From: Alphaproteobacteria bacterium
Lineage (GTDB): Bacteria > Pseudomonadota > Alphaproteobacteria > JAEULC01
Assembly: GCA_023150455.1 (NCBI GenBank)
Contig: JAKLKW010000012.1
Coordinates: 1-64,000 of the forward strand
Direction of reading: 5' to 3'
DNA length: 64,000 nt
This document shows, one piece after another, positions 58,438 through 63,528 of the stretch. Made by a program: the position numbers and the translations under genes. The notes under the pieces are model-generated. The model was not told the DNA's origin. It worked only from the letters and a program-made list of their open reading frames with translations, and made no database searches. Each line of letters opens with the position of its first letter. Position 1 is the stretch's first letter.

Positions 58438-58451
58438 TTGACCATCGTCAA
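58438..58451. promoter_or_regulatory. FNR/Dnr/NnrR-type box TTGAC-CATC-GTCAA
   Basis: A perfect dyad of the TTGAC-N4-GTCAA type lies 108 bp before the RidA-like start. If it is centred at -41.5, transcription would begin near 58486. Same-type boxes are at 62617 and 63515, and two Crp/Fnr proteins are encoded 3 kb away. Confidence 0.7.
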
Positions 58452-58559
58452 AGACATGGACGCTGGCGACGCCGAAATCTTCCCGCACAGCAGCAACGGG
58501 ATATAGTGCGCAGCGTCGCGCCGGAGGCGATGGACGCGCAGCCGGACTCGAGGAGGAGC

Positions 58560-59723
58560 ATGACACGACTCGACAGCGCGACCGCCGGCCGGAGCTTCGC
58601 TGCCACCGCAGGAGGGACCGAGCACTACATCACGGTCGAGGCGGCGCCCGAGCTTGGCTTCGCCGAGCAGGTCGAGCAGGTCCACCGGCGCTACGCCGAA
58701 GCGCAGCGGGCCATGGGCTTGGCGCCCGAAACGGCCGTATTCCGGCGCGTGTTTCTCAGCGACGTGATGAACCAGGCCGCCGCCATCCGCAACAGCCCGC
58801 TGTTCGGAGATCCGGAGGGCAGCCCGGTCGCCGTCTCGATCGTGCAGCAGCCGCCCCTGCCGGGCGCGAAGGTCGCGCTGCTCGCCTACCACATCGACGC
58901 GCCGACACCGCTCGCCAAGCAGCGTCTGTCGCCCAAGCACCTGCTCATCGGCAAGAACGGGCTTGGCCATCTCTGGAGCACGAGGCTCTGCGCCGGCGCC
59001 TACGGCGCCCCGGTCTCGCCGGAGGCGCAGACGCGCCAGATTTTCGACGAGCTGATCGACGCCCTGTCCGTCCAGGGCGCCAATCTGCACGACCATTGTG
59101 TCCGCACCTGGCTGTTCCTCAAGGACGTCGACGTCTTCTACCAGGGCATGGTCGAAGCGCGGACCGCTGTGTTCGCCGAACACGGGCTGGGCCGCGACAC
59201 GCACTACATCGCCAGCACCGGCATCGAAGGCGCCTGCGCCCATCGCCACGACTTGGTGTCGATGGACGCCTATTCGGTGGTCGGGTTGCGCCCCGAGCAG
59301 GTCTCGTACCTGAACGACTTCGAGCGGCTGTGCGCGACCAAGGACTACAACGTCACCTTCGAGCGCGGCACGCGCGTTTCCTATGCCGACCGGTCGCACC
59401 ATTTCATCTCGGGTACCGCGAGCATCGACCGCGACGGACGCGTCGTGCATCCGGGCGACGTCGCGCGCCAGCTCGATCGGGCGCTGGGAAACGTCGATGC
59501 GCTGCTGCAGGCCGGCTCGGCGCACCTCGAGGACATGACGCACCTGATCGTCTACCTGCGCGATCCGACCGACCTCGCCCGCGTGCGCGCCCGCATCGAG
59601 GAACGAATGCCGGACCTGCCCGCGCTCTACGTCCAGGCGCCCGTCTGCCGCCCGGAATGGCTGGTGGAAGTCGAAGGGATCGCGGTGACGGGCAACGACG
59701 ATCCGGCCCTGCCCTCGTTCTGA
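58560..59723 (+). CDS. RidA/YjgF-superfamily protein, chorismatase-like (FkbO/Hyg5/XanB2 layout)
   Basis: The 387-residue protein starts at ATG 58560 after GAGGAGGAGC. It is too long for a simple RidA protein. The C-terminal third has RidA features (HFISGTASIDRDGRVVHPGD, VDALLQAGSAHLEDMTHLIV, YLRDPTDLARVR). The first part has VFRRVFLSDVMNQAAAIRN and LSTRLCAGAYG-like segments, as in chorismatase-type enzymes. Those cleave chorismate to hydroxybenzoates or dihydroxycyclohexadiene acids. The chorismate assignment is tentative. The upstream TTGAC-type box puts it with the nir genes. Confidence 0.7.
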   Translation: MTRLDSATAGRSFAATAGGTEHYITVEAAPELGFAEQVEQVHRRYAEAQRAMGLAPETAVFRRVFLSDVMNQAAAIRNSPLFGDPEGSPVAVSIVQQPPLPGAKVALLAYHIDAPTPLAKQRLSPKHLLIGKNGLGHLWSTRLCAGAYGAPVSPEAQTRQIFDELIDALSVQGANLHDHCVRTWLFLKDVDVFYQGMVEARTAVFAEHGLGRDTHYIASTGIEGACAHRHDLVSMDAYSVVGLRPEQVSYLNDFERLCATKDYNVTFERGTRVSYADRSHHFISGTASIDRDGRVVHPGDVARQLDRALGNVDALLQAGSAHLEDMTHLIVYLRDPTDLARVRARIEERMPDLPALYVQAPVCRPEWLVEVEGIAVTGNDDPALPSF

Positions 59724-59761
59724 GCCGACCACGCCACCGCCTGCCCCGGGAGACGAATGCC

Positions 59762-60439
59762 ATGTTGAGCAACGATGCGCCGCTGACCATGCTCGATGAA
59801 CAGGCGATCGCCGCCGCCGAGCTGCGCCATGATCCCTACGATTTCGCCTTCGTCGAGCACGCCATGCCGGAGCGCCTCAAGGACGCGGTCCTGGGCGACG
59901 CGCCGCGCATTCCCGATCGCGGCAGCTACGGCCTGCCGGACCTGCGCTATGGGCCGAACTTCGGCGCGGTGATCGACGATCTGCTGAGCGACCGCTTCCG
60001 TCATCTGGTCGAGCGGCGCTTCGACATGGACCTGAGCCCCTATCCGCCCTGCATCGTGATGATGGGAAACACGACCGGCAACTACAACGAGGGCTATGCC
60101 CACCCCGACTCCAAGCACAAGATCGTCACCGTCCTGCTGGGCTTCAGCCGCGAATGGCCCTACGAGCGCGGACGGCTGCGCGTGCTGCGCAGCGAGGATC
60201 GCAACGACTATGCCTTCGAGTTCGCCCCGGAATTCGGCCGCATGCTGATGTTCCGGGTCTGCGACCATTCCTGGCACGGTTTCCTGCCGCAGAAGGGGCA
60301 GCGCATGAGCCTGCAGCTCTGCTACGTCGACTCCGACTGGTACGTGAAGCGGGAGTATCTCCGCCACAGCGTCAGCGCCTTCGCCAAGTCCGTCCCGGTT
60401 CTGCGCAAGGTCCTCGACTGGGCGCCGCGCAAGATCTGA
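59762..60439 (+). CDS. 2-oxoglutarate/Fe(II)-dependent oxygenase
   Basis: The 225-residue protein has a compact double-stranded beta-helix core. The HxD iron ligands lie in GYAHPDSKHKIVTVLLGFS, the distal His in VCDHSWHGFLPQKGQR, and the Arg that binds 2-oxoglutarate follows in that stretch. A Cys-free N-terminal third precedes it. The substrate is unknown. It begins 38 bp after the RidA-like gene, in the same direction, and is followed by a second, broken oxygenase. Use of oxygen by genes under a denitrification-type box is unexpected. Confidence 0.82.
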   Translation: MLSNDAPLTMLDEQAIAAAELRHDPYDFAFVEHAMPERLKDAVLGDAPRIPDRGSYGLPDLRYGPNFGAVIDDLLSDRFRHLVERRFDMDLSPYPPCIVMMGNTTGNYNEGYAHPDSKHKIVTVLLGFSREWPYERGRLRVLRSEDRNDYAFEFAPEFGRMLMFRVCDHSWHGFLPQKGQRMSLQLCYVDSDWYVKREYLRHSVSAFAKSVPVLRKVLDWAPRKI

Positions 60440-60471
60440 ACGATTGAGCCGCCCCCTCGGAGAGGACCGAC

Positions 60472-62557: not shown

Positions 62558-62616
62558 TCAGGGGCCCGCAGCCATTCGCCCGAATGACAGCATCGCACAA
62601 CCTCGCCGGATTCCAT

Positions 62617-62630
62617 TTGACCTTCGTCAA
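62617..62630. promoter_or_regulatory. FNR/Dnr/NnrR-type box TTGAC-CTTC-GTCAA
   Basis: A perfect dyad lies in the spacer between the divergent regulator and chelatase genes. A start site about 41 bp from its centre would be near 62665, which fits translation of the chelatase from GTG 62685 rather than GTG 62649. Confidence 0.75.
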
Positions 62631-62684
62631 GGCAGCTCCCGCCATCGCGTGGGAGCGTGCGCAATTCTCTGCCGGGGAAGCGCG

Positions 62685-63518
62685 GTGGTATTCCAGCAGT
62701 CGCGGACGGCTTGCTTCAGGACGGCGGCATGCAGGCGCCAGACTGTCGTGCTCGTGGGACACGGCAGCGCGTTCGCGAATTCGGGCAACGCCTTGTTCCG
62801 CAACGTCGCGCATCGGCTTCAACGCCGGCACGGGCTCGGCGAGACCCTCTGTGCCTTCGCGCACACGCCGCCGAGCCTGGGCGACGTCTTGGCGCGGATC
62901 GGACCGGCCGGCGCGACGGTCGTGCCGGTGCTCGGGATGGTAGGGCATCATGCGCGGCGAATCGTCGCGGACACGGAAGCGGCCGCGCGCTCCGGTTGCA
63001 GGGTTCGACTGACGCCGGTTCTCGGCACCCATCGACCGTTCGTCGCCGCGCTGGCCGAACGCGTGCTCGATCTGATGGATGCGACACCGCTGCGGTGCAG
63101 CGAGGCCGGGCTGCTGCTGATCGGGCACGGCAGCCGGTCGAGGGGCGCGCCGGAGGCCGCATCGCTGCTTGGCAGCCTTCTTTGCGGCGCCTTCGCGGAG
63201 ACCGCGACGGTGTGTCTGTCTCGAGAGCCTGCGGTCTCGGCTTGGCCGTCGCTGCTGCGGGCGCGGGACGTCGTTGCGATCCCCATGCTTTTCAGCGATG
63301 GCCGGCACATGCAGATGGACGTGGGCGCGGCGATCGGCCTGCCCCGCGACCGGCGCCTCGGCCGCCGCTGCCTCTCCGGCCCCTGGATCGCCGCCGGGCG
63401 GCGCATCTGGTGCGCGGACATCCTGTCGGATGCGGCGTTCCTCGCCGCAAGCATCGCCGAGCTATTGGGCGAGGTCGTCCCGGCGCACCGCCCTTCGCTC
63501 GTGCCTGGTTCCGGTTGA
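62685..63518 (+). CDS. CbiX/SirB-type sirohydrochlorin chelatase
   Basis: The 277-residue protein has two CbiX half-domains. Metal-binding His residues lie in [14 protein letters not shown] and [14 protein letters not shown]. Members insert Co or Fe into sirohydrochlorin; iron insertion gives siroheme, the precursor of heme d1 used by NirS. Its place directly before nirS, with the same box type upstream of both, supports that role. I chose GTG 62685 (GGGGAAG four bases upstream) because the probable transcript starts downstream of the longer GTG 62649. Confidence 0.82.
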
Positions 63519-63528
63519 CGATCGTCAA
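63515..63528. promoter_or_regulatory. FNR/Dnr/NnrR-type box TTGAC-GATC-GTCAA upstream of nirS
   Basis: A perfect dyad overlaps the end of the chelatase gene. Its centre is 67 bp before the nirS start. Spacing to a probable transcription start near 63563 is the -41.5 expected for class II-type activation. A TTAAGC near 63551 could serve as -10. Confidence 0.75.

Follow-up and report, generated by a model that had tools for sequence, protein, structure and literature searches.

Denitrification regulons of the DNR/NnrR type are characterized by palindromic Crp/Fnr boxes upstream of nirS and other nir-island genes and by tandem Crp/Fnr regulators; the alphaproteobacterial NnrR consensus in print is ctTTGcgnnnncgCAAag, and the same paper assigns a TTGACnnnnGTCAA motif to HcpR of other phyla (PMC1274295). 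Chorismatases of the FkbO/Hyg5 family possess a catalytic glutamate (Glu-334 in Hyg5), and a Gly, Gly, Cys signature marks their 3-hydroxybenzoate-forming (type-II) subfamily (PMC7170507). The UbiT–UbiU–UbiV module of O2-independent ubiquinone synthesis is preceded by FNR-type sites across Pseudomonadota (1,362 of 1,566 sets; PMC11707229). All three systems bear on a cassette found in a 64,000-nucleotide stretch of an Alphaproteobacteria bacterium genome (the window; positions 1 to 64,000 of contig JAKLKW010000012.1, here C220, of assembly GCA_023150455.1, here G000), in which a Rid-like gene is followed by two genes for 2-oxoglutarate (2OG)-Fe(II) oxygenases and then by a nir island. We lean towards the view that this Rid–2OG–2OG cassette is a conserved low-oxygen unit under Crp/Fnr-family activators, carrying out chorismate-derived aromatic chemistry whose product would serve the oxic-to-anoxic shift. 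The evidence comprises a control box with an island-specific core, conservation of the cassette and of FNR-type sites in its relatives, neighbouring genes of O2-independent biosynthesis, a chorismatase fold with its signature residues, and invariant oxygenase triads. The window carries the following features:

58438..58451, + strand: Crp/Fnr-type box TTGACCATCGTCAA, its centre 115.5 bp 5′ of the ATG at 58560
58560..59723, + strand: Rid-like/chorismatase-fold protein (P0001), 387 aa, matching Pfam Ribonuc_L-PSP in two stretches
59762..60439, + strand: 2OG-Fe(II) oxygenase 1 (2OG1; P0004), 225 aa, Pfam 2OG-FeII_Oxy_3 above cut-off
60472..61099, + strand: 2OG-Fe(II) oxygenase 2 (2OG2), frameshifted, recognized by tblastn in two pieces and by alignment to two relatives (L033 and L066)
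61092..61820, − strand: Crp/Fnr regulator A, with an ESLSR helix and no N-terminal Cys cluster
61820..62557, − strand: Crp/Fnr regulator B, with an ESLSR helix and no N-terminal Cys cluster
62617..62630, + strand: box TTGACCTTCGTCAA, between the diverging regulator B and cbiX-like genes
62649..63518, + strand: CbiX-type chelatase-like gene, Pfam CbiX
63515..63528, + strand: box TTGACGATCGTCAA, its centre 67.5 bp 5′ of the nirS ATG
63589..64000 in the window, continuing to 65331 of the contig, + strand: nirS, Pfam Cytochrom_D1

The perfect TTGAC-N4-GTCAA dyads reported in the initial annotation are present as exact copies at 58438, 62617 and 63515, the first lying between a + strand MBL gene (ending at 58168) and the Rid-like gene. 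When up to two mismatches are allowed, the window yields 10 matches against 10.9 expected; loose matching being at chance level, information resides only in exact sites. The whole assembly (5.86 Mb, 279 contigs) contains 25 exact sites, against one for the reversed control pattern, and the box class is therefore well above chance and also occurs outside nir. Five of the 25 fall within 17.7 kb of C220, two of them beyond the window at 72396 and 76161. These five are the only mismatch-free sites in the assembly of a stricter form, TTGAC-SWTC-GTCAA (TTGACSWTCGTCAA), and they precede the Rid-like gene, the cbiX-like gene, nirS, a NosR/NirI-like gene and a heme-copper oxidase-type operon. The cores of the remaining 20 sites differ from the island SWTC in every case. 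Frequent occurrence at unrelated sites, a concern raised with the first description of the box, thus applies to the general form (20 of 25 elsewhere, several of them at stress genes and some in gene interiors) and not to the island form, which none of the 20 carries.

We read the C220 form as the target of a local regulator, probably A or B of the tandem Crp/Fnr pair (61092–62557). Both regulators had been noted to have ExxSR helices and both indeed carry ESLSR; like DNR/NnrR-type proteins, they combine an ExxSR recognition helix with the absence of N-terminal Fe-S cysteines. Two differences set the locus apart from described DNR/NnrR-type regulons: the island box TTGAC-SWTC-GTCAA does not conform to the published alphaproteobacterial NnrR box, TTGcg-N4-cgCAA, and a Rid–2OG cassette is included in the regulon. 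The 20 off-island sites (L001–L022) apparently form a separate regulon of a general FNR/FixK-type regulator, stress genes included. Several of them stand ahead of Usp, CBS-BON, PPK2, Cpn60 and Hsp70-like genes and several others fall within predicted genes. Pfam was run on ten proteins, nine of them from these sites, and identified a universal stress protein, two CBS-BON proteins, PPK2, Cpn60, an Hsp70-like protein and a class-III aminotransferase, one of the nine having no match.

A scan at one genome per species returned at least 80 Rid loci; among the matches listed, 30 (L033–L061 and L066) constitute the window's clade. The 2OG pair is complete beside the Rid gene in 28 of these 30 and in none of the other 50. 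The two exceptions are L036, ended by a contig edge inside 2OG2, and L058, which lacks an oxygenase and has its Rid gene split in two pieces. The three proteins also co-vary, their distance matrices being correlated (Rid–2OG1 0.72, Rid–2OG2 0.57, 2OG1–2OG2 0.52) to an extent reached in none of 2,000 permutations. Few genomes have the Rid gene: at E ≤1e-40 it occurs in 2 of 385 class genomes (the window's and G046), and the same two account for the 2 of 398 in a phylum sample, these broader samples having been used because the window's order sampled only four genomes. The G046 cassette lies near metG–tatD–MBL, as in the window. No paper on a Rid–2OG–2OG cassette was found in the open-licence literature, the only literature covered.

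Two clade records, with Terriglobia and Omnitrophota in their titles, are possibly misplaced bins. Two plasmids hold a second, broken Rid copy beside the 2OG pair (L028 18185–19196, L026 3119–4181) in addition to an intact copy in a ubiTUV–pdxST run. Many of the listed loci outside the clade are Bacteroidota (L029, L074–L112) with Rid homologues about 40% identical, frequently in the order porin, imelysin, di-heme oxidoreductase, porin, lipoprotein, Rid, hemerythrin, response regulator; L074 and L111 in this group have two Rid copies each.

Control sites are likewise retained among the relatives. A perfect TTGAY-N4-RTCAA lies within 300 bp upstream of the first cassette gene in 15 of 29 loci, against 0.33 expected from the density of the pattern elsewhere in the same loci. 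The 29 leave out L036 (whose contig starts inside the cassette), L058 and the window; gene starts were set by hand, and L035 and L038 are closely related. Seven further loci (L033, L037, L045 and others), not counted, have one or two mismatches at tolerable positions, or a site that is farther away or within the operon. Together with the island-specific exact box of the window, these sites uphold the proposal that the Rid-like and oxygenase genes belong to a low-oxygen regulon. The box occupies a gap shared with ubiT in L046, L047 and L053, and a gap shared with a Crp/Fnr gene in L042.

The similarity to chorismatases suggested by the initial annotation holds at the level of both fold and signature residues. 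An AlphaFold2 model of the Rid-like protein (26 sequences; pLDDT 92.9, pTM 0.92) has as its best structural matches the chorismatases 5a3k, 4bps and 5ag3 (Z 31.1–31.4 over about 300 residues). Superposition with Hyg5 (5a3k) gives a Z of 31.4 and an r.m.s.d. of 2.7 over 299 residues, and that with FkbO (4bps) a Z of 31.3; the two-domain chorismatase fold spans the whole protein, with 299–304 residues aligned. FBXO22 (Z 14.2) and single Rid-domain proteins (Z about 11) follow, and the prominent rows consist only of chorismatases, FBXO22, cyanuric acid hydrolase and Rid proteins, although the lack of other folds there carries no weight. Residues G221, G285, C363 and E370 are invariant in 26 sequences (alignment A3, 25 of the at least 80 fetched loci plus the window). 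In the alignment with Hyg5, E370 and C363 are equivalent to E334 and C327, and the glycine pair G221/G285 to the glycine pair G240/G173, so that the catalytic Glu and the type-II Gly, Gly, Cys are all kept, in a mapping that takes the offset between Nat-hyg5 and Hyg5 numbering as constant. Another chorismatase subfamily forms 4-hydroxybenzoate. Despite the shared fold, identity with FkbO and Hyg5 is only 19–20%, and the score against TIGR04444 (NCBIfam FkbO/Hyg5 chorismatase) is 50.4 bits, short of the cut-off of 325 for the named subfamily. Genomic setting differs as well: FkbO and Hyg5 belong to polyketide/non-ribosomal peptide synthetase clusters, whereas the Rid-like gene is accompanied by low-O2 biosynthesis genes and the 2OG pair. 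Fold and residues indicate that the protein is most likely a chorismatase-type enzyme, predicted to split chorismate into hydroxybenzoate and pyruvate.

The earlier assignment of two oxygenases stands for 2OG1, which is intact, and in part for 2OG2, which is recognizable although 60472–61099 is not a single reading frame: 50 bp near 60890 are missing relative to L033 and L066, which puts the gene out of frame, and the gap is either a true loss or an assembly error. An HxD…H arrangement (H114, D116, H172) is invariant in 21 of 21 2OG1 sequences, L057 being omitted for its stop codon; its counterpart (H127, D129, H183 in L033 numbering) is found in 20 of 20 2OG2 relatives, an alignment from which the broken window copy was left out. 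We take these residues to be the iron-binding triads. The 2OG1 model (pLDDT 79.1) has PolD and PasI as its nearest structures (9blq, 9ei6, 9ei7; Z 16.1 and 15.0), and profile searches place PasI/PolD at the top for 2OG1 and return PasI as the sole match for 2OG2. However, identity to 2OG1 is 17–18%, and the genes seen around the cassette include none of the octosyl-acid pathway. In a test for independent occurrence, 2OG1 copies of at least 60% identity turned up only in the two Rid carriers among 322 genomes. Distant relatives (at most 42% identity) are widespread, with any match in 51 of the 322, and give no lead on function; some adjoin genes that are presumably ELM1-like.

The neighbourhood was surveyed by tblastn in 32 carrier loci, namely the window, L025 of G046 and the 30 clade loci. 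UbiV was found in 8, UbiU in 7, UbiT in 6, HemN and NrdD in 5 each, NrdG in 4, and PdxS and PdxT in 3 each, and 14 of the 32 have at least one of UbiV, HemN, NrdD and PdxS; these counts are lower bounds, because contig ends cut many loci. L045 displays a single-direction run ubiT–ubiU–ubiV–rid–2OG1–2OG2, and the Acidiphilium plasmids pACRY03 and pACMV3, together with a near-identical Acidithiobacillus stretch, carry ubiT–ubiU–ubiV–rid–pdxS–pdxT with nrdDG. The NCBIfam equivalog cut-offs are passed by UbiU and UbiV from pACRY03 and by the UbiV encoded in the window's genome. In L066, narH and nnrS are close by, and a neighbour in L042 is, we presume, cydA. At whole-genome level, 29 of 32 carriers have UbiV, against 42 of 385 class-sample genomes (two carriers among the 385); the Fisher p of 2e-22 is not relied on, because carriers share ancestry. 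The UbiTUV module resembles the cassette in having FNR-type boxes upstream and adjoins it in several carriers, but it works in many bacteria without the cassette and has no sequence relation to it.

NirS, by comparison, occurs in 4 of 32 carrier genomes, which rules out its co-occurrence as a rule for cassette carriers, and the window is the only one of the fetched carrier loci with nir genes. The special link of the Rid and oxygenase genes to nirS initially envisaged does not therefore survive: the tie of the cassette is to O2-independent biosynthesis (ubiUV, hemN, nrdDG, pdxST), not to nir in particular. The ubiTUV run of the window's own genome lies at L113 4509–7541, behind a gene that is presumably bacteriohemerythrin-like; no perfect TTGAY-N4-RTCAA was present upstream of it within the stretch fetched.

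In the favoured scheme, Crp/Fnr-family activators would induce the three-gene unit when oxygen is low. The TTGAC-SWTC-GTCAA box would most likely be recognized here by one or both of the local DNR-like regulators, which would activate the cassette jointly with the heme-d1 nitrite reductase island. The Rid-like protein would then cleave chorismate, and the two oxygenases would hydroxylate the hydroxybenzoate or a derived compound while traces of O2 remain. The product would serve cells going from oxic to anoxic respiration, the cassette acting alongside the O2-independent routes to ubiquinone, heme, deoxyribonucleotides and pyridoxal phosphate (PLP) whose genes adjoin it in relatives. The last step may be lost in the window's genome, because the assembly has a broken second oxygenase gene.

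Several observations weigh against this scheme. Oxygenases that need O2 sit awkwardly within an anaerobic regulon. A perfect box within 300 bp is lacking in 14 of the 29 loci, and where it lies in a divergent gap it may serve ubiT or the regulator instead. The substrate may not be chorismate, because the TIGR04444 score is far under the cut-off. UbiV is missing from carriers G766, G770 and G773; moreover, carriers are not independent lineages and the class sample is not lineage-matched.

Repeated placement beside genes for making ubiquinone, heme, deoxyribonucleotides and PLP without O2, together with a like control site, makes the cassette enzymes good candidates for missing anaerobic steps. 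One gap named in the literature concerns where Hyphomicrobium denitrificans obtains the 4-hydroxybenzoate for its ubiquinone (PMC12423496), and the reported oxygen donor of UbiTUV is prephenate, itself chorismate-derived (PMC11574389). A chorismate-using enzyme tied to UbiTUV makes a link to the ubiquinone precursor directly testable. Tentatively, a chorismatase-like enzyme and two high-affinity 2OG oxygenases under Fnr/Dnr-type control might constitute an undescribed pathway to an aromatic cofactor or ring precursor for the switch to anaerobic respiration. If so, the low-O2 biosynthetic set of UbiTUV, HemN, NrdDG and PdxST would gain another module. O2-using enzymes in an anaerobic regulon would also indicate a defined micro-oxic step. 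A further idea, in which Rid would recycle what the prephenate-dependent U32 hydroxylases produce, was set aside.

Among other explanations, the one that fares best, while still unlikely, is that the cassette makes a specialised metabolite, namely an aromatic that diffuses or binds metal and is released when O2 is low or under nitrosative stress. The nearest solved relatives of 2OG1, PolD and PasI, are enzymes of nucleoside-type antibiotics; the distribution of the cassette is patchy and, in some strains, plasmid-borne; and the imelysin/di-heme oxidoreductase loci of the Bacteroidota homologues are possibly iron-related. Chorismatases, too, commonly start specialised metabolites (PMC7170507). 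On the other hand, no ligase, synthetase or transporter is a regular neighbour in 34 clustered loci, and the neighbours that do recur belong to primary metabolism.

Somewhat less likely again is that the Rid-like enzyme makes 4-hydroxybenzoate, the ubiquinone ring precursor, for the O2-independent UbiTUV route where UbiC is lacking. The direct adjacency of ubiTUV to rid in L045 and on the Acidiphilium plasmids fits this proposal, and XanB2-type chorismatases feed ubiquinone, according to the title of a work cited in PMC4433059. Of the 32 carrier genomes, 29 lack UbiC (PF04345), an absence that says little because UbiC occurs in just 4 of 385 class genomes; its presence was for that reason dropped as a discriminator. 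About 40 UbiV-positive genomes of the class sample, however, have no such Rid gene, the oxygenases are left unexplained, and homologues exist in Bacteroidota, which to our knowledge make no ubiquinone. In addition, the residues kept are those of the 3-hydroxybenzoate type (PMC7170507). Supply of a ubiquinone precursor is accordingly attractive but weak as a role.

It is improbable that the Rid-like protein is a RidA-type reactive-imine deaminase protecting PLP enzymes, with the oxygenases as unrelated passengers. Two Rid-type domains, an Arg-containing C-terminal motif that aligns with RidA-family proteins and pdxST neighbours in 3 of 32 loci are in keeping with such a function, but the full-length chorismatase match (Z 31, against about 11 for single Rid domains) and the nearly constant presence and co-variation of the 2OG pair in the clade argue against it. 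We similarly give little credence to the box at 58438 being a chance, non-functional copy, with the cassette outside low-oxygen control in this organism: its centre is 115 bp from the likely ATG, farther than at nirS (67 bp), and the frameshift in the second oxygenase means that the cassette may be decaying here, yet the box matches exactly an island-specific core found nowhere else in 5.86 Mb and boxes are conserved in relatives.

The start codon of the CbiX-type gene is uncertain, the listed GTG being only 25 bp from the box centre, and the box at 62617, in the divergent gap 62557–62649, may also autoregulate both Crp/Fnr genes. The gene behind box 72396 scores 734.8 bits against NCBIfam NosR, under the cut-off of 1000, and contains Fer4_5 and FMN_bind domains. 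Box 76161 precedes an operon with COX2-like and COX1-like genes that is ended by the contig edge; in this contig end (L017 422–1444) a small membrane open reading frame comes first, and the two genes that follow are perhaps, by our provisional label, those of a CuA-type nitric oxide reductase or oxidase.

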